A DNA stretch of 20,849 bases from a virus, in the IMG/VR virus record IMGVR_UViG_3300025133_000727, positions 1 to 20,849 of that record. One strand, given 5' to 3'. Shown one piece after another: positions 6,044-18,603 of the stretch. Below the pieces are notes generated by a model, which made no database searches, had not been told where the DNA came from, and was given only the letters and a program-made list of their open reading frames with translations. The first letter of the stretch is position 1, and the number at the start of each line of letters is the position of its first letter. The translations under genes were made by a program, and so were the position numbers.

Positions 6044-6369
6044 AGTGCTGGCACTGTAATACCGAACTTATTTGGGGAGGGGATGAGGATCTGGAAGATG
6101 ATGAGGACTTTGTGATGGTCACCAACTTAAGCTGTCCCACGTGCAACAGCTTTGTTTTGGTAAGCCTACCCCATCAACCGAAGCCAGATACGGGCACACA
6201 TACCTGTCCCACTTGTCAGGGAGAGGGGCGTGTCAAAGTGGAAAGAACAAAGCTCGGGGAGCAAGCCAGCGATAGGTTTGCTCCCCCTATTTATTACCAA
6301 TCTGAAAGAGAGTGCGAAGACTGTGGTGGTGTGGGACACACCACACCCGACACAGACTGCGCTATCTAA
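6040..6369 (+). CDS. Zinc-ribbon / DnaJ-type zinc-finger protein
   Basis: A 109-residue protein with two zinc modules. The first uses C3-x2-C6 and C32-x2-C35, with the conserved start MKCWHCNTELIWGGDEDLED. I associate this N-terminal module with many marine phages. The second uses C56-x2-C59-QGEG and C92-x2-C95-GGVG, the CxxCxGxG signature of DnaJ-type zinc fingers, separated by a charged linker. So this looks like a fusion of a common phage zinc ribbon with a DnaJ-like finger pair. It may bind nucleic acid or protein. It is the last gene of the rightward operon, its ATG overlaps the lipoprotein stop, and its stop overlaps the stop of the convergent late operon by 8 bases. Confidence 0.78.
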   Translation: MKCWHCNTELIWGGDEDLEDDEDFVMVTNLSCPTCNSFVLVSLPHQPKPDTGTHTCPTCQGEGRVKVERTKLGEQASDRFAPPIYYQSERECEDCGGVGHTTPDTDCAI

Positions 6370-6907
6370 CCTTCGGGGCGGTTGCGGCATAGTATAAGAA
6401 CCACCCGACACCCGCCACAAAACACAGCAGGAACACCACCTTGCCCGATTCCACCAACACTTTATGCCAGAAGACTTTGTCGTCTAGCTTTTTTTGCAAC
6501 GCGGCTTCTTTCGCCCGCTTCTTAGCCTCTGCTTTTTCCTTAAGCAACTTCTGACGCTGATCAATTATCTGGTCCCAAGTGGGTTTCTCTCCCGGACCTG
6601 ACGGCCACTTGCGGTTAATCTCATCCGCAAGACTCTTCAACTCCAATGCTTGGTTCTTCTGCTCAATAATCTGATTTGCCACGGATGAGATAGAGGTCTC
6701 ATCATCGTACCCCTCATCTCCAGCCCTCATCCTCAGCACCTGTTGGCGTCGCGTCGATGCTTGCTTGCGCTTTTCTTTTTTCTCCTCACCATCGTGCGAG
6801 TCAAATAATTTTTCCAAGCTGCTCCCTAAATCCTTGATTGACTGCGCCGTCTCCACGGCAGACTTAGCGGCAGCGATAATTGCAATTGTGGCACTTATAG
6901 GTTCCAT
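6362..6907 (-). CDS. Tail-anchored coiled-coil phage protein
   Basis: A 181-residue protein, last gene of the leftward late operon. Residues 1-33 form a small-residue-rich amphipathic helix (ISATIAIIAAAKSAVETAQS). Residues 36-56 are highly charged and basic, RMRAGDEGYDDETSISSVA follows, residues 112-145 are a Lys/Ala/Glu coiled coil, and residues 154-174 are a single transmembrane helix close to the C-terminus. GGTGAG just before the ATG serves as ribosome site. I recall similar proteins in marine podoviruses and cyanophages near structural or lysis genes, with no settled function. The topology would allow a spanin-like or membrane-anchoring role, but no lipobox or partner gene is visible. 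Confidence 0.72.
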   Translation of the reverse strand: MEPISATIAIIAAAKSAVETAQSIKDLGSSLEKLFDSHDGEEKKEKRKQASTRRQQVLRMRAGDEGYDDETSISSVANQIIEQKNQALELKSLADEINRKWPSGPGEKPTWDQIIDQRQKLLKEKAEAKKRAKEAALQKKLDDKVFWHKVLVESGKVVFLLCFVAGVGWFLYYAATAPKVR

Positions 6908-6926: not shown

Positions 6927-7013
6927 TCAATTAACTAGCAGTGCAATAAGCACAACAGCAATAACAACCCAGACTCCAATAATCCATTTCAAATGTTCTT
7001 TCATATAGTCCAT
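6927..7013 (-). CDS. 28-residue single-TM peptide
   Basis: A very short frame encodes MDYMKEHLKWIIGVWVVIAV followed by VLIALLVN. It has a charged N-terminal segment and one clean transmembrane helix of about 18 residues reaching the C-terminus. The ATG overlaps the stop of the upstream three-TM gene (TAATG), the same junction style used elsewhere in this late operon, which supports translation by coupling. It fills the only gap between the neighbouring genes. It could be a small holin/pinholin-like or regulatory membrane peptide. The role is inferred from composition and position only. Confidence 0.6.
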   Translation of the reverse strand: MDYMKEHLKWIIGVWVVIAVVLIALLVN

Positions 7014-7450
7014 TATTTCTTGTCCCTTTCATCTCTCGCAGCCTTAATCAAATCTTCCTTTTCGATTAACCACTCCATCCCCGCATCACTGAGCAACGCT
7101 TCGCGTAGGCGGCGCTGCGTAATCTCCGACTCTGTCTGCTTGATGTCATCACCAGCAATAAGTTTTCTCGCTCTGGCTTCCAGCACGGGCAACAAGCGCA
7201 GCCCTGAATACCCCACTACAAACGCGATAGCTGGACCCCAGATCATCTCAAGCGCCCAGTGTTTCATGATCGGGGGGATAAAAAACTCCGCAGCAATCCA
7301 GCCTACGATCACAGCTACGAGAATATCTTTAAGACCATCCAAGTTAAACGCACGCTTGGTCAGTGCGTTGGTCGCACCTCCGGCTCCAGCCGCTGCGATA
7401 CAACAGGTCTTAGCACCAATGGTCATAATCCAATATTCAAGACCGCCCAT
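7013..7450 (-). CDS. Three-TM membrane protein, possible second holin
   Basis: A 145-residue protein with three likely transmembrane segments (about residues 8-25, 38-59 and 66-86), then a charged cytoplasmic helical tail (ARARKLIAGDDIKQTESEIT and a Lys-rich end DERDKK). The first segment is rich in small residues (CCIAAAGAGGATNALTKRAF). Size, three TM helices and a hydrophilic C-terminal tail fit class I holins, and it lies two genes after the lysozyme. However, a better holin match is present at 8351-8800, so this may be an antiholin, a holin partner or an unrelated membrane protein. It begins eight bases after the EF-hand gene stop, with a weak GAAGTGAG upstream; Met9 is an alternative start. 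Confidence 0.68.
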   Translation of the reverse strand: MGGLEYWIMTIGAKTCCIAAAGAGGATNALTKRAFNLDGLKDILVAVIVGWIAAEFFIPPIMKHWALEMIWGPAIAFVVGYSGLRLLPVLEARARKLIAGDDIKQTESEITQRRLREALLSDAGMEWLIEKEDLIKAARDERDKK

Positions 7451-7458
7451 GTTCTATC

Positions 7459-7902
7459 TCACTTCTTTCCATTTGTTGACATGTACGCCGTCATACCCAT
7501 GTACGCACCGACGACCCCAGCCATAGCAACATAGAACAGGGAGCTAAGATCGCCCAATAGCTTAACCCTAGCATCAGGCACAACAGGCAGAAAAAGCACA
7601 ATGGTAAAAATAATAATGCTTGCCATAGCCAGCCACGCCATGTGTCGTTGAGCATCTGCTTTCTGTTCCTGTGATGTAGCTTCATGAATCGCTTTAACGG
7701 TAGCAAGCTCTTCGTCAGTGACTACGCCATCGCCATCGACATCATAGCCATTATACTCACTGTGCCTCTGAAGTTTCTTCTGCTCTTTCTCCATCGCAAC
7801 AATCCAGTACAGGTTTCTGGCACGCATTACATACATAATGTGCGCGAAGTAAAACCATTCTGCCGTGCTGACCGCACCACGGGCAGACGAACTCCTCCCC
7901 AT
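7459..7902 (-). CDS. EF-hand membrane protein of the lysis region
   Basis: A 147-residue protein with a canonical EF-hand calcium loop at residues 54-65 (DVDGDGVVTDEE). Asp is at positions 1, 3 and 5, Gly at 6, Val at 8 and Glu at 12, all as in calcium-binding loops. Two transmembrane segments follow at about residues 88-107 and 119-140. Before the loop lies an aromatic amphipathic segment (AEWFYFAHIMYVMRARNLYW). The start is taken as ATG 7902, which overlaps the lysozyme stop as TGATG, the junction style of this operon. ATGs at 7833 and 7794 are alternatives; the last would begin just before the EF-hand region. The gene is coupled to the lysozyme, so a role in lysis control or membrane attachment is plausible. 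Calcium binding is inferred from the loop. Confidence 0.75.
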   Translation of the reverse strand: MGRSSSARGAVSTAEWFYFAHIMYVMRARNLYWIVAMEKEQKKLQRHSEYNGYDVDGDGVVTDEELATVKAIHEATSQEQKADAQRHMAWLAMASIIIFTIVLFLPVVPDARVKLLGDLSSLFYVAMAGVVGAYMGMTAYMSTNGKK

Positions 7903-8354
7903 CAACCGTCATACAAGAACAAGGCGCGCTCAGCCGCCCGCCTCCGCACTAACCCCGGTAGTATTCTCCCGCCAGCCCTTCTCCACTTAGGAAGCTCATC
8001 CGCAACTTGTTCTCTGGGAGCGTTCCTGTTCAACAGGGATCTTAAGGTGCTCGATTGTAAGCGACCACTCCCTAAATTATATACGAAACTTTGCAGCGCC
8101 GAGTGCTCATTCTGGTTTAACTCCACCTTGATGAGGCGGCTAACCGCTCTTTCGCAATGACCGACCTCTCGTAATAATAGCTCCTCGGCCTCTGCCTCAT
8201 CAATCGTGGGGTGATGTAAGGCAACACGACTGCCATCAAAGGTGCGAGTAGAGCCATAGCCAATAGTCGGCACGGCTGCGGGGCATAGGTACGGTTCAGA
8301 ACGGAAGCCCTCAAAGAGCTTTATAATCTTTAACCCCCGCTCATTGATCCTCAT
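7902..8354 (-). CDS. GH24 phage lysozyme (endolysin) with Glu-Cys-Thr site
   Basis: A 150-residue soluble endolysin of the T4-lysozyme/GH24 family, which cleaves the MurNAc-GlcNAc bond of peptidoglycan. Catalytic Glu15 is in IIKLFEGFRSEPY, and Thr30 is in the signature PTIGYGS. Spacing from Glu to Thr is 15, as in T4 (Glu11/Thr26). The position of T4 Asp20 is Cys24 (YLCPAAVPTIGYG). Cysteine at this position is known to be functional: T4 D20C keeps activity, and P1 Lyz uses Cys51. There is no signal-anchor N-terminus, so export needs the adjacent holin. The start at 8354 overlaps the holin stop (ATGA); a longer frame to 8390 lies inside the holin gene. C-terminal segments LNQNEHSALQSFVYNLGSG and LPGLVRRRAAERALFL are typical of the family. 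Confidence 0.9.
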   Translation of the reverse strand: MRINERGLKIIKLFEGFRSEPYLCPAAVPTIGYGSTRTFDGSRVALHHPTIDEAEAEELLLREVGHCERAVSRLIKVELNQNEHSALQSFVYNLGSGRLQSSTLRSLLNRNAPREQVADELPKWRRAGGRILPGLVRRRAAERALFLYDG

Positions 8355-8800
8355 TTTCTTGCACGCGATATTGCTCGCCCGCCAAACCAAAATGCGATAA
8401 CGGCAGCAAAAAGCGCTTTTGTTTCTTCATCCCAAACGGCATTGACTGCATCCAATCCAGATACCCCGGCGGCAGTGAGAGATAGATAGGCGGAGACTTC
8501 AACGAAAATGAACAGCCCGAAGAAACTATAGGTAATAACAGGGCGCACAGAACCACGAAGACCGTCAATCCACTTGACCCCTGTGGGCTGCATGGATTTG
8601 TGAAGCGATTCAATCTCGCGTATATCAGCTTCAACATTAATGGCCTCCAGCTTCTGGGCGGCTAGCTCTTTCTGTTGACGGATCTGAACTTCCATTACAG
8701 CCAGTTCATGTTTCTTGTCCTGCTTGTCTTGGAAAAAATCCATGACCTTTGGCAAAAAACTTGTACCAAATCCCAACAGGGACCCAAGCAAACTAAGCAT
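8351..8800 (-). CDS. 3TM-type phage holin (GTA_holin_3TM-like)
   Basis: A 149-residue membrane protein. It has an N-terminal hydrophobic helix (MLSLLGSLLGFGTSFLPKVM), a long charged coiled-coil region at residues 24-68, and two C-terminal transmembrane segments: SVRPVITYSFFGLFIFVEVS (84-103) and ETKALFAAVIAFWFGGRAI (126-144). The VRPVITY and FWFGGRAI segments are characteristic of the 3TM holin family first named from gene transfer agents. It would form inner-membrane holes to release the lysozyme, whose start overlaps its stop. ATG 8800 is chosen because GGAG lies six bases upstream at 8807-8810; an in-frame TTG at 8812 is the only longer option. Confidence 0.85.
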   Translation of the reverse strand: MLSLLGSLLGFGTSFLPKVMDFFQDKQDKKHELAVMEVQIRQQKELAAQKLEAINVEADIREIESLHKSMQPTGVKWIDGLRGSVRPVITYSFFGLFIFVEVSAYLSLTAAGVSGLDAVNAVWDEETKALFAAVIAFWFGGRAISRARK

Positions 8801-8850: not shown

Positions 8851-11800
8851 CTACCGAAACGCCTCTTGGCGCATCTCAGGTAGAGACTCCACAGCCAGCA
8901 GTTCCATAGCTGTAATATCATCAATCAATTTTCGTTTTGCTTCCCCACTTATAGCCGATGTCAGAACCCTTTTTCGTTCATCCCGCAACTCAGAAAGCAC
9001 ACCCGATATCTCTTTTACTTCATCCTCCAAAGCTAACAGCGCAAAGCGTTCTTCTGAAAACTCTTCGCTCTCAGGCAGCGTTAGCTCCCCTTCTTCAAGC
9101 ATCTTTGCGGTCTTAACCGCTTGATTAACTGCCTTACGCAAGTCATAGAACTGTGTCACCAGACCACGCGCATCAGGTCGGGCGAGAAAGCGCTTAACAA
9201 AAGGATACTCACTAAGCTGTTTAGCAGGGCGCTCACCCAGATCAGAAGCAACATCCCTTATTACACCGTCCACCGTATCCAAAAGAACGGTGCCTAATGT
9301 ACCGCCATAGCCACGTATCATGTGATCTATTTTTACAGGCGCATAATTAAACTGTTTACCTAAGTTTATAGCGAGCGCTGATGTTCGACTGTTTGCTCTA
9401 TACCCAGGATCTAGCCCTTCAAGATATTGGCCCTCTATTTTACGCCCGGTCCAGAAGCTATAATTAGTTATTGCTTCAACAGCGGGCAATGCTGCTTGAG
9501 GAATAGGATTAAACTCAAAGGTATTAATCAAGCCCTGACGCACCGAACGAGTAATATCACGCGGCACATCCTTGCCAAAGTAAAGAGCCATCACCCTTTC
9601 AGGTATTGTCTTGAACAAGAACCCAACTTCAAATGGAATCGGGATCTTGAGGGGTGGTCCGTCATAACCGGGTATCCATGACGCCGGGATGATCCAGTAG
9701 TTATCCTTAATCTCTGGGTTCTGATTGATATATTCTTCATCATCATGTACTAGCGCCCAGTATGCAGCGCTACTCATACCAACTAGCAACGCTTTCATAT
9801 AGAATTGCCGCTTAACAATGTCCGACTCAGGCCGTGCTGCAAATCCCTTGCGCCCCATGGAGGAGCGATACAGCACATCCAAGCCTTGGATACGTGCATT
9901 TAAGAAGGGAATCATCACGGCAAGATTTTGAATTAGCGGTGACGATCCTCGTGCGGAGAAGTTTATTACCTCTTGTGCTTCAAAAAATGCCTGAACCTCA
10001 TCTCCTGTATCCTTGAGTACCCGCTCATATACAGCAATACGAGTAGCCGCATCAGATGAGCGTGATGCTTTGCCTGTTGCATCCCATATTGCCTTCAAAG
10101 GATTGCGTATGAAGCGACCAGCAGCAGAGGGATACTTATACTTGAGAAGTTCCTTCTCTATAAACTGCGTCATCTTGGTGGGGTCACCACCGAAATCAAA
10201 GCCCGTCATTAAGCCCGCAGAGGCCAATGCTTCTGCCGATGTGCTGCCGCGCAAGGCTTGAGAAAAGCCACCGATAGTTCCAGCTAGTGCTCTAGTCTTA
10301 CGGCCACTGGTTACCCACGCCGACAGCGAATCACGTAGCATGTTTGCTGCCATGAAGTCGGGTGATCGGGTAATCATCTCACGCAAGAACCGCGCAGGCA
10401 TTCCTAATAAATTCACCCATGGGGGGATTGATTGGTTTTGCAGATAATTGCTTAAAGAAGAATACAAAGCTTGGTCAGGAACCATCAAAGTTAAGTCCTC
10501 TCCCTTAACTCTGAAAGTGACACTACCATATGTGCCCTTCTTAACTTTTACAGTCTGTATTGGATCAATCAATACCATGTTGCGCATCACACGCTGCACA
10601 CCTACGTTCATCATTCCAGTCTGAACCGCAGACAAAGCATTCTCAGTGATGGTTTCAAGAAACCCGCCTATGGGCATCCCTCGCTTAACCACCTTCACAT
10701 CCATACCCGTTTCTTGCTTAAACTTTTCAGCATATGCGTCTGCTTGTTTTTTCTCATTTCCTCTAAACGTGGTAGGAAGAGCCGTAGAGACCTTGTTAGC
10801 ATCCGTTGCTATCACCGACCATATAGCCCCCTGACCGCTCAGCGGAGGAGGAGGAGCGGCAGCTACTATTCCATTAAATAGATCGGGGTCTCCCGGAATA
10901 GCATCTTGCTTGTTATCAAGCTGACGATAGAACGGTATATAGTCTGCTGTTTCCTTCCAGACATCAGCCTTTTCTCTAGTTAGAACGCCCGTATCTACTA
11001 AGAAGTCTACGAAGTAACCGTTCCACACCTGATAGTCTTGGAAGATGTTGGAAAAATCATCGTTATATACAATGCTCTTTCCCTCTAAAATCTGCGCTAC
11101 CTCCGCTTCACTAATCTCCATAACTTGCGCGATCTCTGGAACAGTATTTCCCATCGCCAAATATTCTGCGATCTGCTGCTGCGTAAGGAGGCGCTCTCGC
11201 CCCTCTCTTATGAGACGCGCAGCCCTGCGTGCTATAGAATATAACTGGAATGTATCAAAGCGATTGCCTTTTCGTAGCGGCTCAATGATAGGAATAAATC
11301 CTGTAGAAGTTCCCGCAATCCGGCTTTGCTCTATAGTCCCATCAACATTAGTTTGCTGTGCATCTTCAGGTATATCTCTAACTGAAGTACCTCCATTCTT
11401 ATAAACCGGGACTCCTTTAGATAGAGCATAAGCCGTAAGAGCAGTAGCTCTACGCGCTGACCGTAACGCCGACCAAGCCGAACCTGAAGCGCTTAGGAAA
11501 TTAGAATACCGCTCATCTTTTTCAGAGAGCGCTACATCCCCGCGCCTAGCAGGGTCCCACTCATCAACATGTGCTCTACGAAACCACGTAAAGAACTCTC
11601 CGAAACTATCTAAAGGAGTCCCGCCAAGCATACCAAGCTTGGTTAAGAACTTTTCTCCCAGTGTCTCATGCTGTTGAACAGCAACTATACCCGAAGGAAT
11701 GTCCACGCCCATATCCATGGGTTGAGACTTCATAGACCATTCTTGAGAGATGGGGCGAGCCGCCATTTCAGGTTTGTATTCATACTCTTCATAGAACGAT

Positions 11801-14800
11801 ACCGTCTCTGGCTTTCCTCTCCTTTCCCCAAACTCTTTCATAGCTTGAAGAAGCTCTGGATCAGTAGGTCCGGGATCGCTTTCTGTAATCCATTTCCTCT
11901 GCAACTCCTCCTTCATCTGCACAACAGTGTCTTTAGACAGGCCTAATCTACGCGCTGCATAAGCATCTATATCCCCATCAAGAGCAGCTAGCACATCAGG
12001 ATCTGCGTACCGCCCCAAAAAATCGTCCATGCGTATCTTGTCCCCATTGGGCATGTACAAAAATACTTGGGTGGGAACTTGTGCCTGTCCTATTTCTTCC
12101 TCCACAGCCTTCATACGGTGACGGCCTTCATGTCCCTGAACGCGCCACTGGCTTTGGTCCTCATCCCATATAAGCGCAAGCCATGGATTGGCAATCTTTT
12201 GATCCACCTCCCCCCGCAGGATTTGTTTAATATACTCTACTGTGGGGAGGTCACGCCCAGGAGCGCGAACTAAACCAGTAGACTCCATTGCCCAATCTAC
12301 TGGTTTAGCAAGGGCAAGGAATCTTTTGGGGGTCAGGGATGTAGTGATATTGGCATAGTCATCCATTTGATTGGGCACCACACCCACAGCACCTTCCTTA
12401 TTTCCAAAGAACTGTCGCGCATATGCCTTAAAATAATTGTCCGTCTTGCGAATAACCCTACGTCTAGTCGGAGGAGGCCCCAACCTAGGCCGCGCCATAG
12501 GGCGTGCCGATTTATCTTTCTTGATCTTTGACTTAAACGCCATAATCGCAGCGTCTCGACCTGCGGGAGAAAGATTATCTAATTGCGTTGTGCCGTCCTT
12601 CTTTAATTCTTTCCTGGCCTCTTGATACGCAGGATTTTCTTTGCCCGTCACAGGAAAGATCGTGTCCATTATAAACATCGGATCTTGCAATCCCGTAAGC
12701 TCTGCGGGATCAAGTAGATAAAACGCTGCACGAATAGGATGTTTAGACGCAGGGTCCCGCCACTCTAATGCAACAAAGTCATCCCGAATGCGCCCTCGAC
12801 TAGTCTCCGCTGTAACGTCAGCTACAGCATACCCTTTCCTTGGGGCTTGCAATTCAGGATTCCAATATGCTTTTAGTAAAGACTCTAAAGCTCGCTTAAC
12901 GGTAGTACGTTCATTTCTAATGGGTCCCCATCCATAGGGGGTATGCTGTCTAAAATCGTACATATGATCTTCATTAGAAAGAACATGCAATAGCCCACGA
13001 TCTTGTGGGGTGCCGACAGGCAGCACTACAGGTATGTCTTTACCTAGATGCCTAATGGTTCCAAACTTTGCAGTAGCATTGCCATCTGTGTCATAGCCCG
13101 CGACAACCAACTTCTTTGCTGCGGGCGGAAGATCAGTGAAGCGCCTAGCTTCTTTGTCTGTGGAGGTGGCAGCAGCGACCTGCTCTCCCAAAATCTCTAC
13201 ATCAGAAATGGGTGGTGCATACTTCTCAATAGCAGAATCTAATTCTGCTTCTGCATTTTCTAAACCCGCAGGGTCAACGGGATGGCTTTGATCTAGCTCT
13301 ACTCTTAGCTCCTTAAAGGCGGGGGACAGGTCTACAATATCTTCAACGCCTACCTCCTCACTATACATATGAGGTTCTTCTAAAATCAAACCTGTCAGCT
13401 TCCCCATCCGTGCGTCATGGTACTCAGGACTCTTCCATCGGTCAGCTTCCACAAAAGCATCTGAATAATCCTTTCCTGCTTGCCGAAGGATATTGATTCT
13501 CTTCATATATTCTTCGACCTCAAGGCCTTGGTTGGTTTCAAAATCCTCACCCGCATGCTCTTCAGCGTAAGTAAGAAAGGGTTGATTCGGATAAGCTTCC
13601 CCCACAATCTCCCTGACACGCCGCCACTCTGCCGCGCCACGGTCTTCTAACTTTCCACGTTCATTCAGAACTGCTGTCACAGCATCTTCCAGTACAAAAG
13701 ACCGTGCCGACTTCTCAACCCCCTCCTGAGAAACCTCTACCATCTCCTGATCCAATACAGGATCACCTGTCATGGTGTACTGTATAGGAAGTAGGGCGGT
13801 CTTTTGTTCAGCGTATCCACGCTCTGTAAGTGGCAGAGTATCAGCACGTTTTGTAGGAGCTATCCCTAAGTTGTGGAAATTAACCCAGCTATTCTGCCCC
13901 CGTGTCTCGGAAGTCAGCGCCCACCTAGCCCATGGGCTGCGGGTCATACGCATGTGGTTCTGCCACGCAGCTTCCTCACCTAAGGGACCAAACTTATTCG
14001 GCTCCATAGTGTGCGCATAGTAATCGTGAACTGCCCTGAATATGTCGTTGATAAGCAGAGGTCGCCCGGTTATGTCTGTGAAGCCACTGTCTTGTAATAA
14101 GGGATGATTGTCATAGGCAACTCCTTGAGGCCCAAACGCCGCCGCATTAGTAGCAAGAATGCGCAACCTATTATTGTCCAGTATATCTTTGCGCATTGCA
14201 TCGCTACTGGAATACACATCATCAATGGCTATGTTCGATGGGGCATCTTCATCACGCACCACCGTCTCAACTTTAATGGGAAGCGCCCTGTACTGGCTCT
14301 TTAGCTCACGCGCTAGTTCATCATAGGCTTTGCGCACTTGAGGATTGCCCAGATCATTAACGGGCATGTCATCAAATGCATCTGCTATGTCTGATTGAAG
14401 ATCACGCTGCTCTGGAGTGAGGGATTGTTGCGGAGGAACAGGAACAAACGGACGGCCACGTAGCCGTTGGGCTACTCGCCAACTGGTTCTGTTCCCCTCT
14501 TCCGCGTCCGGGGGACGAAGTGGGCCTTGTATGTCGGAGAACGGGTTGGTTGCTCCATCACCTCCTCCGTAAACCCATAATCTTTGAACGCCTTGACCAA
14601 ATGTTTGGACGCGCTCTCCAAGAGATTTTCCGAATCGCTCAACGGTGTCACTAAATCGCTGGATCTCTTCTGCATTAGTAGGATCTCCTACAAAGTAAGT
14701 CTCGATAACATTATCAAAAGCAGTAACTCCGGGCAAGTTTTCCTCTTGTAGAGCCGCCTCTATATCTTCACGTGAAATCGGTTCAGACAACGTAAATTGA

Positions 14801-17800
14801 AAAACAGGTGTGTTAAAGGAGCCATCTATATATTGGTATCCTTCTTTATTCCAACCCAACCCCATCCCAGGCTGCACAAATGTCATATCTTTTTGGCGCT
14901 GCATCCCTTCTTTTAAGGACATAAGATTTTGACGGACATGAATTTCTTCTTGATTAAAATTATCCGCAAACTTAGCCAACGCTCTTAATACATCCTTGCG
15001 CCCCCTTTCTTCAAATCCAACATCAAGCCTAATGGATGGCTCTAAATCTCCAAACCACAAACCCTCTGCTGGTATCGGAAGGATACTCGTCTCAGGAATG
15101 CCGCTCAACAAGTAAGCAAGAGAGTCCGCCGCAATATCTTGCAGCACTTGTTTTGCCCCTACATCCCCTAAGCTTGACTGATCCCGTAATTCCCGTAGCC
15201 CCTGAATGCTGCCGGTAGCAGCCGAAAGATTAACAGCTATTTGATTGACAGGGACCTCATTGATGCCCCTAATCTCAGATCGGTTCAGAACATCTTGGTC
15301 CCATACAACGAAGTTACGGGTGCCTCTTAGTCTCCTTAAAGCACTATCCCTGCTAAATTTATCCCAAAATTGTAGGCCCGGAATATCCGCATCCCGAAGC
15401 AATTCAGATGTAGCTTGAGACTTTCCAAGAATGCTCATTAAGTCTGAGCCTGTTGAGCGGGAATTAATCCTGAATTGGGGGACCGACCTTGTCGCAAACC
15501 CGCTTGGATCTTCATTGAGATAATTTAAAAGATAGCCTATTTTCTGATTCTTAGAAAGCTCGTCTAACTGATACCGCTTAAGGCGCTCCTTTGAAGGAAC
15601 TAAACTTATTAGCTCTTCTGCTGACAAGCCTGTTGATCTAACAATTTTCTCTATAATTTCTGGCTGGTCTCTTAAGGGAGCATCCCAATCAAGAAATTTT
15701 GCCACCGCATCATCAGGAATATCTAGTTCATACATAAAGCCAATGGGCTTTTCCAACACACGCTCTATCTCTTTAGGATCAGGAAGAGTGGTATGTCTGC
15801 GTGGCCTTGCGCCGGGTTTGGGATTGCCTTTGCTATCAACAGAAATTACATCGACCGACCAATTTTGCCCCGTTGTCTCATCAGAAGGATTAAAGCCCAA
15901 GACCTTGTCAGGACCACCATAGCCCTTAACAATTCGTCCTGGAGTAAAATACTCAGGCAGCAAAGATAATATTGCGTGATGGTTATTGTGCCCAACATTA
16001 ATCCGATACTGTTTTCCCGTACCTAAAGCTTGTCCTGAATAAAATCCCCATCCAAAAGCCGTGGTTCCTTCCCCTTCTCTTACAAAAGATAGATCAGGAG
16101 TGCCCAATGCCCGCCCCGCTTCAGGCTTCCACCTAACAGCACCACCATGGAAAGTACGTGCTGCCTTGTCTTCTTTCTCAGTCTGCAAGGATGTTACAAG
16201 TTCATCTCCAAAGTCCTCGGCTGGAGCCGCAGCGGTGGCAGCTACAAAATCAGGAGAGGTCTGTATACGTTCAAAGACCTGCGCCGCTTTGTATATGTCA
16301 GCCTCAGCCAAGCCGCCCTTTAGATTCCTGAAGAAGTTAAGGATACGTTGCCATATTGACAGGGGACGCCCCTTGAGAACCACGTGCCCACCAGCATGGC
16401 CCCTGAACATTTCCGCCGCAGCTTCTTCTATCTGCGCGGCTGGACTAAGGTCTTTGTAAATCTCTTGAATAACCTGCATTACAGTCTTGTCAGGATCAGA
16501 CCAATGTGGGGCTTGGCTCGCAGCCTTTGCCAAGGCGCTCATATCCTTGTTATTGATGACCCCAAGATCCACCCATGAATGCACGGTCTCATGATCGGTC
16601 AGCCCAGCCAAATACTCAGCCATTTCCTTGGGCTTTTTCAACGATGATTGGGGGATCGCATCAAGGGCCAGGATGATAGCACCCTTGGCAGCCTTGGTTC
16701 GGGGAATATACTTGGCCTCTTGAGGTCCAGCATCAAGCGTGCCTGTTATTTCCTGACGACTAAGGGTGTCAATGATTGCTAACGGCACATCATCAGACAA
16801 CCCACGCGCACGCAAACGGCGCACAAGATTGTCGCGGATACGCTGTATAATATGAGGGGGAATTTCCTGCTTAGGCCCGGTGCTTTCGGCTGCGTCAAAT
16901 AGGGCCGTTACTGTTGAGGCAGTTAGAAGCTCGGGTTCAGCAGGTGATACGGGCACTGTATCCAAAGAGCTTGCTTGGAACTCAGGATCAAGTTCCTCAA
17001 ACCCTGGAACATCCGGCACCGTTACTGCTGAAGGAACTGTTTCGTCTATAGTCCCGTCAGGTGGCGCAGGAATGTCCACCTGCTGCATCTCTTCGGGTGC
17101 TGTTTCTTCTACAGGAAGCCCTGTTAAATCCAGAGGCATTTCTGAGGGGGGAACCGTTTCGTCTATAGGCCCCTGATCTAAAGCTCTTGCTTGCAACGCT
17201 GCAACAACGTCCTCAGGCTTCATGCCTGAAGTAACTTGCACCCCATTCTCTTGGGCTATTCGGCGTAGATTATTGGTAATAGCTGTCGGCATTCCCTGCG
17301 CCGCAGCCGCTAAGAAGTCTACCGCCTCCTGCGTTAGGCCTGTAGAAACATCGACTTGCTGAACACCCCCCTCAACCTCCTCTCCAGCAAGACCCGTTAA
17401 ATCCAGGGGAATTTCTGAGGGGGGGACCGTTTTGTCTGCTGCTACGGTTTCCATTTCATCCGCAGCTACCGCAGCACCAACAGCAGCGTCGGCTTCAGGG
17501 TCTATCTCCGCAGTTGTTACGGTCTGCTCCGCAGCATCTGCGCTGTCTTCTTCTAATGTTTCAGGTAAGGTTTCGGGCAATCCTTCAGTAACATCGGGGA
17601 GTGTCGTTGGCTTTTCTTGAGTCGGGCGAACCAATGGAGAAGTGACAGTGCTAATAGCACCACCACCAAACCCACCAATAAGAAAGGAATTAATAGCGCT
17701 CTCCAAACGCTGAGCAAATTGAATGTCTTCAGGGGACGCTCCTGTTGCTTCCGTGATTTCACCTGTAATGTTCTTTATAATATCTTGAGCCGCTTCAGTA

Positions 17801-18603
17801 AAAGCTTCTATGGTGTACCCACGCCCGCCTAATTGAATGGCCCGCTTCGCTAAGTTCTTGGCTATTTTTTTACCTGTTAAGCCAGCCAGTGGCTTAACTA
17901 TTTTGGTCAAGCCCAAGGTGTCAAGGCCAGCCATCAACGCACCGGGTACCACTGCTATCTTAGCGGCCAACTCTCGGTCAACTTTTTCTTCTTCAACTAA
18001 AAACTTAAATGTTTCGCCATAGTTTAGTGCAAAAGAACCACTAGCTGCACCCGCTATGCCACCTACCAGAGTGCCCCCTGGACCCACCAAGCTTCCAACA
18101 GCCGCGCCTGTTGCTCCAGTTGCAACCGGCACCACGAATGACCCTGCCGCTTGCCCTATTCCCTGCCCCGCATAATCAATCAGAGATTCTAAGTCTTCTA
18201 CCTGTTTGTAAGTTTGTATTCGTGGAACAAAGTCTTCGGTGGGGTTGTCTTTAAATTCTTTCTGAAGGTACCCGCCCCACTCATTAAGATCATCTAAGCC
18301 TGATACAGTACCTAAGCCTTCAGCAGCCCATCCCAATAGCTCAGGATTAGACTGCCGCACCGTGTCCACAAAGGTACCACTAAGCTGGTTCCAGAATCCT
18401 GGGTCACTGGGTTGGGGGGAGGTCTGTTCTGCTCCGCCCATCAGATAATTAACGATAGCCTGATCTACGTGTCCAGCTTCCCGTGCCTGTTGAAGCTGCT
18501 CAACATTAACGCCCATATTTTCTTGCGCTAAATAGTCTAATATCTGAGCATCATTGTAACCAGCTTGGAGGGCTTGATTATATTGCTGTTGATTAAACGG
18601 CAT
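8851..18603 (-). CDS. Giant 3250-residue polyvalent protein (zincin, ART-like, LPD38-like)
   Basis: One uninterrupted frame of 3250 residues. From the N-terminus: two short helical repeats (8-56); a glycine-rich membrane-like segment (145-230); an acidic Pro/Glu-rich linker with internal repeats (330-530); a zincin-type peptidase site H671-E-T-V-H675; an ADP-ribosyltransferase-like module (815-1105); an unassigned module (1187-1325); a conserved FRAVHDY/ETRGQN module (1425-1575); a possible barnase-like module (1825-1960); a ParB-like GHEGRHR motif (2157-2163); an HTH-like segment (2472-2510); and an LPD38-like region (about 2735-3010). This matches the large polyvalent proteins of phages and conjugative elements, thought to be packaged and injected to act on the new host. 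It lies between a probable virion protein and the holin, in the late operon. ATG 18603 is three bases after the previous stop, with only a weak GGGG upstream. Virion localisation is inferred. Confidence 0.88.
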   Translation of the reverse strand: MPFNQQQYNQALQAGYNDAQILDYLAQENMGVNVEQLQQAREAGHVDQAIVNYLMGGAEQTSPQPSDPGFWNQLSGTFVDTVRQSNPELLGWAAEGLGTVSGLDDLNEWGGYLQKEFKDNPTEDFVPRIQTYKQVEDLESLIDYAGQGIGQAAGSFVVPVATGATGAAVGSLVGPGGTLVGGIAGAASGSFALNYGETFKFLVEEEKVDRELAAKIAVVPGALMAGLDTLGLTKIVKPLAGLTGKKIAKNLAKRAIQLGGRGYTIEAFTEAAQDIIKNITGEITEATGASPEDIQFAQRLESAINSFLIGGFGGGAISTVTSPLVRPTQEKPTTLPDVTEGLPETLPETLEEDSADAAEQTVTTAEIDPEADAAVGAAVAADEMETVAADKTVPPSEIPLDLTGLAGEEVEGGVQQVDVSTGLTQEAVDFLAAAAQGMPTAITNNLRRIAQENGVQVTSGMKPEDVVAALQARALDQGPIDETVPPSEMPLDLTGLPVEETAPEEMQQVDIPAPPDGTIDETVPSAVTVPDVPGFEELDPEFQASSLDTVPVSPAEPELLTASTVTALFDAAESTGPKQEIPPHIIQRIRDNLVRRLRARGLSDDVPLAIIDTLSRQEITGTLDAGPQEAKYIPRTKAAKGAIILALDAIPQSSLKKPKEMAEYLAGLTDHETVHSWVDLGVINNKDMSALAKAASQAPHWSDPDKTVMQVIQEIYKDLSPAAQIEEAAAEMFRGHAGGHVVLKGRPLSIWQRILNFFRNLKGGLAEADIYKAAQVFERIQTSPDFVAATAAAPAEDFGDELVTSLQTEKEDKAARTFHGGAVRWKPEAGRALGTPDLSFVREGEGTTAFGWGFYSGQALGTGKQYRINVGHNNHHAILSLLPEYFTPGRIVKGYGGPDKVLGFNPSDETTGQNWSVDVISVDSKGNPKPGARPRRHTTLPDPKEIERVLEKPIGFMYELDIPDDAVAKFLDWDAPLRDQPEIIEKIVRSTGLSAEELISLVPSKERLKRYQLDELSKNQKIGYLLNYLNEDPSGFATRSVPQFRINSRSTGSDLMSILGKSQATSELLRDADIPGLQFWDKFSRDSALRRLRGTRNFVVWDQDVLNRSEIRGINEVPVNQIAVNLSAATGSIQGLRELRDQSSLGDVGAKQVLQDIAADSLAYLLSGIPETSILPIPAEGLWFGDLEPSIRLDVGFEERGRKDVLRALAKFADNFNQEEIHVRQNLMSLKEGMQRQKDMTFVQPGMGLGWNKEGYQYIDGSFNTPVFQFTLSEPISREDIEAALQEENLPGVTAFDNVIETYFVGDPTNAEEIQRFSDTVERFGKSLGERVQTFGQGVQRLWVYGGGDGATNPFSDIQGPLRPPDAEEGNRTSWRVAQRLRGRPFVPVPPQQSLTPEQRDLQSDIADAFDDMPVNDLGNPQVRKAYDELARELKSQYRALPIKVETVVRDEDAPSNIAIDDVYSSSDAMRKDILDNNRLRILATNAAAFGPQGVAYDNHPLLQDSGFTDITGRPLLINDIFRAVHDYYAHTMEPNKFGPLGEEAAWQNHMRMTRSPWARWALTSETRGQNSWVNFHNLGIAPTKRADTLPLTERGYAEQKTALLPIQYTMTGDPVLDQEMVEVSQEGVEKSARSFVLEDAVTAVLNERGKLEDRGAAEWRRVREIVGEAYPNQPFLTYAEEHAGEDFETNQGLEVEEYMKRINILRQAGKDYSDAFVEADRWKSPEYHDARMGKLTGLILEEPHMYSEEVGVEDIVDLSPAFKELRVELDQSHPVDPAGLENAEAELDSAIEKYAPPISDVEILGEQVAAATSTDKEARRFTDLPPAAKKLVVAGYDTDGNATAKFGTIRHLGKDIPVVLPVGTPQDRGLLHVLSNEDHMYDFRQHTPYGWGPIRNERTTVKRALESLLKAYWNPELQAPRKGYAVADVTAETSRGRIRDDFVALEWRDPASKHPIRAAFYLLDPAELTGLQDPMFIMDTIFPVTGKENPAYQEARKELKKDGTTQLDNLSPAGRDAAIMAFKSKIKKDKSARPMARPRLGPPPTRRRVIRKTDNYFKAYARQFFGNKEGAVGVVPNQMDDYANITTSLTPKRFLALAKPVDWAMESTGLVRAPGRDLPTVEYIKQILRGEVDQKIANPWLALIWDEDQSQWRVQGHEGRHRMKAVEEEIGQAQVPTQVFLYMPNGDKIRMDDFLGRYADPDVLAALDGDIDAYAARRLGLSKDTVVQMKEELQRKWITESDPGPTDPELLQAMKEFGERRGKPETVSFYEEYEYKPEMAARPISQEWSMKSQPMDMGVDIPSGIVAVQQHETLGEKFLTKLGMLGGTPLDSFGEFFTWFRRAHVDEWDPARRGDVALSEKDERYSNFLSASGSAWSALRSARRATALTAYALSKGVPVYKNGGTSVRDIPEDAQQTNVDGTIEQSRIAGTSTGFIPIIEPLRKGNRFDTFQLYSIARRAARLIREGRERLLTQQQIAEYLAMGNTVPEIAQVMEISEAEVAQILEGKSIVYNDDFSNIFQDYQVWNGYFVDFLVDTGVLTREKADVWKETADYIPFYRQLDNKQDAIPGDPDLFNGIVAAAPPPPLSGQGAIWSVIATDANKVSTALPTTFRGNEKKQADAYAEKFKQETGMDVKVVKRGMPIGGFLETITENALSAVQTGMMNVGVQRVMRNMVLIDPIQTVKVKKGTYGSVTFRVKGEDLTLMVPDQALYSSLSNYLQNQSIPPWVNLLGMPARFLREMITRSPDFMAANMLRDSLSAWVTSGRKTRALAGTIGGFSQALRGSTSAEALASAGLMTGFDFGGDPTKMTQFIEKELLKYKYPSAAGRFIRNPLKAIWDATGKASRSSDAATRIAVYERVLKDTGDEVQAFFEAQEVINFSARGSSPLIQNLAVMIPFLNARIQGLDVLYRSSMGRKGFAARPESDIVKRQFYMKALLVGMSSAAYWALVHDDEEYINQNPEIKDNYWIIPASWIPGYDGPPLKIPIPFEVGFLFKTIPERVMALYFGKDVPRDITRSVRQGLINTFEFNPIPQAALPAVEAITNYSFWTGRKIEGQYLEGLDPGYRANSRTSALAINLGKQFNYAPVKIDHMIRGYGGTLGTVLLDTVDGVIRDVASDLGERPAKQLSEYPFVKRFLARPDARGLVTQFYDLRKAVNQAVKTAKMLEEGELTLPESEEFSEERFALLALEDEVKEISGVLSELRDERKRVLTSAISGEAKRKLIDDITAMELLAVESLPEMRQEAFR
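9574..10401 (-). other. LPD38-like C-terminal region of the giant protein
   Basis: Residues 2735-3010 have the ordered features I associate with LPD38 (large polyvalent protein-associated domain 38). These are MITRSPDFMAANMLRDSLSA (2743-2762), SSDAATRIAVYERVLKDTGD (2849-2868), VINFSARGSSPLIQNLAVMI then PFLNARIQGLDVLYR (2879-2913), DNYWIIPASWIPGYDGPPLK (2967-2986) and IPIPFEVGFLFKTIPERVMA (2987-3006). Hydrophobic helices within it (for example FYMKALLVGMSSAAYWALVH) may be membrane-active. LPD38 is typically the C-terminal portion of such giant proteins. A charged helical tail (about 3150-3250) follows. Confidence 0.68.
11074..11190 (-). other. HTH-like segment inside the giant protein
   Basis: Residues 2472-2510 read as two short helix-turn-helix-like units: TQQQIAEYLAMGNTVPEIAQ then VMEISEAEVAQILEGKS. 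The pattern I-A-x-x-M-x-I-S-x-x-x-V is typical of sigma-region-4-like or resolvase-like HTHs. DNA binding in a mainly structural protein would be unusual, so the segment may only be helical. Confidence 0.4.
12064..12261 (-). other. ParB-like GHEGRHR motif region
   Basis: Residues 2115-2180 contain PTVEYIKQILRGEVDQKIAN, PWLALIWDED, then WRVQGHEGRHRMKAVEEEIG (2153-2172) and VPTQVFLY. The order of strand, strand, G-H-E-G-R-H-R and helix resembles the ParB/sulfiredoxin-like fold, where a G-x-x-R-x-x-A motif binds nucleotide or DNA. It is followed by ARRLGLSKDTVVQMKEEL (2217-2234), which looks like a helical DNA-binding segment. Activity is inferred. Confidence 0.5.
12727..13131 (-). other. Possible barnase/EndoU-like nuclease module
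   Basis: Residues 1825-1959 run from LPPAAKKLVVAGYDTDGNAT through KFGTIRHLGKDIPVVLPVG and RGLLHVLSNEDHMYDFRQH to DDFVALEWRDPASKHPIRAA. The order (a strand leading to an LPVG turn, a GLLHVL-x4-H helix, then paired strands) recalls the phage barnase-EndoU-colicin-RelE-type (PBECR) nuclease domains of polyvalent proteins. The key residues differ from any version I can quote, so this is tentative. Confidence 0.3.
13879..14331 (-). other. FRAVHDY / ETRGQN module of the giant protein
   Basis: Residues 1425-1575 contain a dense set of invariant-looking polar residues: NHPLL (1499-1503), INDIFRAVHDYYAHTM (1518-1533), KFGPLGEEAAWQNHMRM (1537-1553) and ETRGQNSWVNF (1566-1576). The His/Asp/Glu/Arg pattern (H1526, D1527, H1531, E1543/E1544, H1550, E1566, R1568, N1571) looks like an enzymatic site, possibly metal-dependent. 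I associate this motif set with large phage proteins but know of no demonstrated activity. Confidence 0.55.
14629..15045 (-). other. Unassigned module following the ART-like domain
   Basis: Residues 1187-1325 begin EPSIRLDVGFEERG and contain FNQEEIHVRQNLMSLKEGM, GYQYIDGSFNTPVFQFTLSE, PISREDIEAAL, LPGVTAFDNVIETYFVGDP and a helix ERFGKSLGE. The alternating strands and helices look like a compact alpha/beta domain with well-ordered motifs. I recognise the style of a large-polyvalent-protein-associated domain but cannot assign it. Confidence 0.45.
15289..16161 (-). other. ADP-ribosyltransferase-like (ART-PolyVal) module
   Basis: Residues 815-1105 of the giant protein match the layout of the ART domain of polyvalent proteins. 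FHG is at 818-820, followed by GTPDLSFVREGEGTTAFGWG and FYSGQALGTGKQYRINVG (847-870), where the GWGFYS pattern is typical. Then come MYELDIPDDAVAKFLDWD (957-974) and DIPGLQFWDKFSRD with RNFVVWD (1073-1102). A role in modifying host proteins or nucleotides after injection is known or proposed for such toxins. The middle part (about 890-950) is longer than I expect and may be an insertion. Catalytic residues cannot be fixed by eye beyond H819 and the SR at 1084-1085. Confidence 0.7.
16399..16686 (-). other. Zincin-type metallopeptidase module
   Basis: Residues 640-735 of the giant protein contain MAEYLAGLTDHETVHSWVDL, with the zinc-binding HExxH motif at 671-675. A downstream acidic helix IEEAAAEMFRGHA (725-737) provides a third-ligand glutamate candidate (E726, E727 or E731), as in gluzincins. 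An upstream strand GAIILALDAI precedes it. Expected role: proteolysis of a host or virion target, or self-processing of the polyprotein-like chain. The specific family and substrate are not known. Confidence 0.72.
17071..17433 (-). repeat. Imperfect direct repeat in the giant gene's linker
   Basis: Residues 391-419 (beginning KTVPPSEIPLDLTGL) and 481-511 (beginning DETVPPSEMPLDLTGL) are near copies, both continuing to QQVDV/QQVDI. A third fragment DETVP starts at residue 520. The DNA copies (17347-17433 and 17071-17163) remain clearly similar, so the duplication is fairly recent or under conversion. The linker is rich in Pro, Glu, Asp and Thr and is probably disordered. Confidence 0.75.
17914..18171 (-). 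other. Glycine-rich membrane-like segment of the giant protein
   Basis: Residues 145-230 contain long stretches of Gly, Ala, Val and Leu (GSFVVPVATGATGAAVGSLV and GGTLVGGIAGAASGSFALNY, then a second hydrophobic stretch IAVVPGALMAGLDTLGLTKI). The small-residue spacing resembles glycine-zipper transmembrane helices. In an injected virion protein this could insert into the host membrane during DNA entry. The composition is seen; insertion is inferred. Confidence 0.55.
18436..18582 (-). repeat. Two helical repeats at the N-terminus of the giant protein
   Basis: Residues 8-27 (YNQALQAGYNDAQILDYLAQ) and 37-56 (LQQAREAGHVDQAIVNYLMG) share the pattern A-x-x-AG-x-x-D/x-x-I-x-x-YL. Each would be a small two-helix unit resembling the short UBA-like segments I have seen at the start of phage internal proteins. 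They may serve as a packaging or docking signal; this is inference. Confidence 0.55.

Follow-up and report, generated by a model that had tools for sequence, protein, structure and literature searches.

A conserved phage protein family with one EF-hand and a predicted membrane hairpin recurs in lysis modules and T4-like hub operons

What is a calcium-binding loop doing in a small membrane protein encoded among the lysis genes of a phage? The question arises from a 20.8-kb virus record (20,849 nucleotides, referred to here in its entirety as the window), in which the gene for an EF-hand protein with two predicted transmembrane (TM) helices and its lysis neighbours all lie on the minus strand. 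Holins time the killing of the host, yet what triggers them is understood only in part, and most of the cultured marine phages examined have no annotated holin. We describe a conserved phage family in which one canonical EF-hand precedes a predicted two-helix membrane hairpin, and which recurs both in lysis modules and in T4-like hub operons. It provides a concrete candidate in the cultured phages CRP-9, CRP-345, DC31 and HTVC008M.

The locus and its gene model

Read along the minus strand, the gene order is a 3250-aa ORF, a GTA-holin-like gene, the lysozyme gene, a 51-aa zinc-ribbon ORF, the EF-hand gene, a holin-like gene and a gene for a tail-anchored protein. The relevant features are as follows.

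8351..8800, minus strand: GTA_holin_3TM-like protein, a second holin candidate (PF11351, 19.6 bits, not reaching the cut-off of 24.8; phrog_6637, E=4e-35, unknown function)
7902..8354, minus strand: endolysin, a phage lysozyme (PF00959, E=1.2e-39; phrog_7 endolysin, E=3.2e-52)
7757..7912, minus strand: 51-aa zinc-ribbon ORF (CPWCG...CNAC; weak zinc-ribbon matches)
7459..7794, minus strand: EF-hand two-TM protein, 111 aa (P0001; ATG at 7794, stop codon 7459-7461; 414 homologous loci)
7708..7743, minus strand: EF-hand calcium loop DVDGDGVVTDEE, residues 18-29 (PROSITE-type pattern, family profile, conserved ligand positions)
7594..7716, minus strand: predicted continuous helix, residues 27-67 (AlphaFold, hydropathy, alignments)
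7471..7575, minus strand: predicted second helix, residues 74-108, with TM2 (AGVVGAYMGMTAYM) (AlphaFold, hydropathy, alignments)
7013..7450, minus strand: small membrane protein downstream of the EF-hand gene (weak phrog_2359 holin match, E=3.1e-5; hydrophobic segment)
6362..6907, minus strand: tail-anchored protein (MEPISATIAI...) of the 'partner' cluster (C-terminal hydrophobic segment; recurrent neighbour of the EF-hand gene)

The homologues align from the sequence MEKEQKKL, which begins at ATG 7794, and nearly all of them start at the equivalent position, with ATG or GTG. L003 and L004, the nearest syntenic relatives, have the EF-hand frame closed four codons 5' of their start. An earlier note on this DNA had begun the gene at 7902/7905, overlapping the lysozyme stop, and this start is wrong on both counts. 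The ATG that does overlap the lysozyme stop (7902-7904) is that at 7912, which belongs to the zinc-ribbon ORF in a different frame. Since the homology and the starts of the homologues place the N-terminus at ATG 7794, the protein has 111 residues rather than ~147, and its soluble part comprises residues 1-51 instead of the 40-85 previously assigned. The 36 extra N-terminal residues, which lie largely over the zinc-ribbon ORF but in a different frame from it, were rejected as coding because they are not conserved in the EF-hand frame. The EF-hand gene overlaps the zinc-ribbon ORF by 38 nt and does not overlap the lysozyme gene. Because the zinc-ribbon ORF lies between the two, as it also does, with conserved cysteines, in L003 and L004, the direct coupling to the lysozyme that had been proposed has to be given up. 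At the far end of the gene order, the 3250-aa ORF (window 8851-18603, minus strand) has a C-terminal part that is 23-31% identical to proteins of Vibrio, Escherichia and Pelagibacter phages.

An EF-hand loop ahead of a predicted membrane hairpin

The central claim of the earlier note, that the two-TM protein contains an EF-hand calcium loop, was borne out: when all six frames are scanned with a PROSITE-type pattern for EF-hands, DVDGDGVVTDEE, in the minus-strand frame, is the sole match in the window, with ~0.03 matches expected from residue shuffling of all open frames of at least 50 aa. Homologues were collected from six samplings and fall into five subfamilies with about 25-70% identity. 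The loop, with the pattern D-x-[DNS]-x-D-G-x-[IV]-x-x-x-E, was present in all 408 readable loci, or 408 of the 409 complete ones, the remaining locus (L103) having an unreadable base inside the loop. Ligand positions 1, 3, 5 and 12 are near-invariant as D, D/N, D and E, and the codons used there vary synonymously, such that both GAT/GAC and GAA/GAG occur. The outcome that the note had set against its own proposal, homologues without the acidic residues, was looked for, and the loop held, being near-invariant in the five subfamilies. Some search seeds overlap the loop and the sampling is therefore biased towards it; in a genome scan whose patterns lay outside the loop, each of the 13 readable copies nevertheless carried it. 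The homologue in the Stenotrophomonas phage isolate DLP_6 is without the loop; the isolates phiM19 and CRP-345 keep it.

The 12-residue loop has oxygen ligands at positions 1, 3, 5 and 12, glycine at 6 and a hydrophobic residue at 8, and it is flanked by helices (a short helix at residues 13-17 and the helix at 27-67). Compared with the PDB, the family profile hits the EF-hands of calmodulin, with a best E of 3.4e-9; single sequences are below the Pfam EF-hand cut-offs. In its canonical loop, flanking helices and profile match the protein resembles the calmodulin family and bacterial single EF-hands, but it differs from them in that its one hand is joined to a predicted membrane hairpin, and in being encoded by phages. 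The loop probably binds calcium. A chance motif in an overlong spurious ORF, as the unconserved 36 codons of the earlier gene model might have suggested, is refuted by the hundreds of homologues, in which the loop is under purifying selection.

The two membrane crossings of the earlier note also held as a prediction, hydropathy and AlphaFold both placing two hydrophobic helices, joined by a short turn, after the loop. An AlphaFold model built from 56 sequences has a short helix, the loop, helix 27-67 and helix 74-108 (mean pLDDT 81; pTM 0.46, such that the relative placement of these elements is unreliable). Helix 27-67 combines the EF exit helix, a charged linker with a conserved ADAQRxMAW motif, and the start of TM1 (about residues 54-72). 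A structure search against viral and PDB libraries gave no significant match for the protein, which is expected for a low-pTM helical hairpin. Lysine and arginine together number about 2-3 over the 15 residues that lead into TM1, falling to 0.5-1.8 between the helices and rising to 2-4 in the tail, a distribution that predicts both termini inside (N-in/C-in).

Genomic settings of the family

The settings of the gene were read from its neighbour clusters, as annotated by Pfam and PHROGs. By context, 196 of the 414 loci are in lysis modules, 125 in T4-like hub operons and 93 among other late genes, counts that depend on the queries used. The lysis-cassette placement proposed earlier thus holds for about half of the loci, with unrelated endolysins and spanins, but not for the 125 in hub operons. 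Since the same protein occurs there as well, a pure lysis-cassette reading is insufficient.

Within lysis modules several arrangements recur. One is lysozyme-(EF-hand protein)-i-spanin-o-spanin, with an Rz-like spanin pair (e.g. L022, L023 and L038). The CRP-9 group has the order (EF-hand protein)-endolysin-spanin, with the endolysin in 73 and the spanin in 72 of 80 loci, and the DC31 group the order tail-anchored partner-(EF-hand protein)-Rz-like spanin-endolysin (partner 72/80, i-spanin 73/80, endolysin 69/80). In the complete phages CRP-9, CRP-345 and DC31 the EF-hand gene lies beside an endolysin and a spanin, and in CRP-810 it is directly upstream of a PF11351 holin, followed by a GH108 endolysin. 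In many of the 414 loci a member of the partner cluster lies no more than four genes from the EF-hand gene. The cluster comprises 151 ORFs, one representative of which matches phrog_32327 (unknown function), and members in CRP-9, CRP-345 and DC31 are sometimes distant from the cassette. Gp73 of Roseobacter phage CRP-207 (L086:2393-2974), annotated as a 'putative lysozyme', was rejected as an endolysin neighbour, as it groups with a one-TM coiled-coil cluster; this cluster often precedes the EF-hand gene.

In the T4-like operons the order is gp26-gp51-(EF-hand protein)-tape measure, and identity between these copies and the window protein reaches about 68%. In DLP_6, the protein at the tape-measure position after the family member (L088:5319-7478) matches, along most of its length, an endolysin family (phrog_315). 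In a tree of 90 sequences, built on few columns, lysis and hub contexts interchange, with 9 parsimony changes if 'other' is ignored; well-supported branches require the lysis label to change 6 times or more. This movement between lysis modules and hub operons poses the puzzle of what the two processes share.

A proposed calcium-sensing holin or holin regulator, and the alternatives

Class II holins have two TM helices and an N-in/C-in topology (PMC9636201). The EF-hand protein resembles these holins (e.g. the S21 pinholin of phage 21) in being small, with two predicted TM helices, a short turn and predicted N-in/C-in topology, and in being encoded alongside endolysin and spanins in a lysis cassette, as in the window and the 196 lysis loci. 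Its modelled anatomy fits a class II holin. It differs in having a canonical EF-hand before TM1 and in occurring also in hub operons; its hole formation is putative, and no holin family was matched over its cut-off. Against PF11351 (GTA_holin_3TM) it scored 20.0 and 19.4 bits, below the curated cut-off of 24.8, and against PF07332 it was likewise sub-threshold. Although similar in size and neighbourhood to PF11351 proteins, with a weak local match (19-20 bits), it has no profile-profile similarity to them, and the two are different genes because they are adjacent in several phages. Profile comparison likewise detected no homology between it and the PF11351-like neighbours, or between it and the holin-like protein encoded downstream. 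The protein does match phrog_27150 (E=1.5e-8), which is the same family (42 of 56 aligned members match) and is listed in PHROGs as of unknown function. Searches of open-licence papers listed no EF-hand holin and no calcium-controlled lysis. Lysis proteins with two TM helices are themselves familiar; what is new here is the putative EF-hand sensor.

The loop is almost unchanged in hundreds of aquatic phages and is often beside lysis genes, which points to a calcium-sensing holin or holin regulator. We therefore favour, as an evenly balanced proposition, that the protein is a class II-like holin, or a partner that sets holin firing, with a cytosolic calcium-sensing N-terminus. A role for the family at the membrane during lysis seems reasonably likely; that the protein is itself the pore-former is a tentative suggestion, a little short of even. 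In late regions of CRP-9 and CRP-345 it was the only small two-TM protein besides the spanin (the scanned part of CRP-9 lies beyond its first 6.1 kb, and an early ORF of 56 aa in CRP-345 has two segments as well). However, a clear PF11351 holin adjoins the gene in CRP-810, L041/L042, L063 and L094, and the window encodes two more holin-like proteins, so that the EF-hand protein is not the only holin everywhere. Given that a real holin adjoins the gene in some phages, some members of the family may form pores and others regulate.

How might calcium act on such a protein? With both termini in the cytosol, where calcium is low, the loop would be empty while the protein accumulates in the inner membrane. 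The EF exit helix is predicted to be continuous with TM1, and calcium binding could therefore be transmitted to the membrane helix. Single EF-hands usually function as pairs. A first membrane leak would admit calcium, the loops of neighbouring subunits would fill and pair, and the paired loops would switch the assembly of the hairpins, with positive feedback leading to abrupt opening. We regard calcium influx as a rather doubtful trigger, and the wider suggestion, that calcium-gated holins are a widespread class in aquatic phages in which influx-filled EF-hands drive subunit pairing and all-or-none opening, as a speculative one. If the family is calcium-gated, it would add an ion signal to lysis timing; and were the wider class real, ion influx would trigger lysis, beyond protein density and membrane potential.

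The closest competitor, itself unlikely, is that the protein acts as an antiholin or lysis-timing regulator, binding a separate holin (PF11351-like or other) and restraining or releasing it according to calcium. The position directly upstream of the CRP-810 holin, the holins adjoining the gene in the other four loci and the two holin-like neighbours in the window all suit such a role. Yet the complete genomes of CRP-9, CRP-207, CRP-345 and DC31 are without a PF11351 holin, so that a regulator would require an unrecognised holin there.

Alternatively, the protein could provide a platform at the membrane on which the tail or hub is assembled, or could itself belong to the hub or virion. In T4, gp27 and gp28 are encoded in the general region near gp51 and the tape measure, and it is in this region, between gp51 and the tape measure, that the 125 hub-operon copies lie. 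The T4 proteins gp26 and gp51 act as chaperones in hub assembly, and gp28 is a small hub protein whose place there is poorly defined (PMC3004832); the likeness of the EF-hand gene to that of gp28 is a positional analogy only. The CRP-9 and DC31 groups, however, keep the gene among lysis genes, with no hub genes near it. Furthermore, T4 holin T was absent from the four T4-like genomes tested, and the EF-hand protein could therefore equally be their holin. We consider a dedicated role in assembly or in the virion improbable.

Finally, the N-terminus might face outwards, in which case a periplasmic loop, filled whenever outside calcium suffices, would serve structurally, as a clamp or anchor, and not as a sensor. 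Extracellular, structural roles are common among the EF-hand and dockerin loops of bacteria, and the loop described here was never lost in the sampled loci, both of which suit this topology. Against it, the charge distribution predicts both ends inside, and the loop is kept equally in freshwater phages, namely Limnohabitans phage DC31 with its 80-locus relatives; we therefore consider an outward N-terminus quite improbable. The same freshwater phages weaken the argument, made in the earlier note, that the high calcium of seawater would change the state of the loop abruptly at membrane rupture: a marine setting is not required for the loop to be retained.
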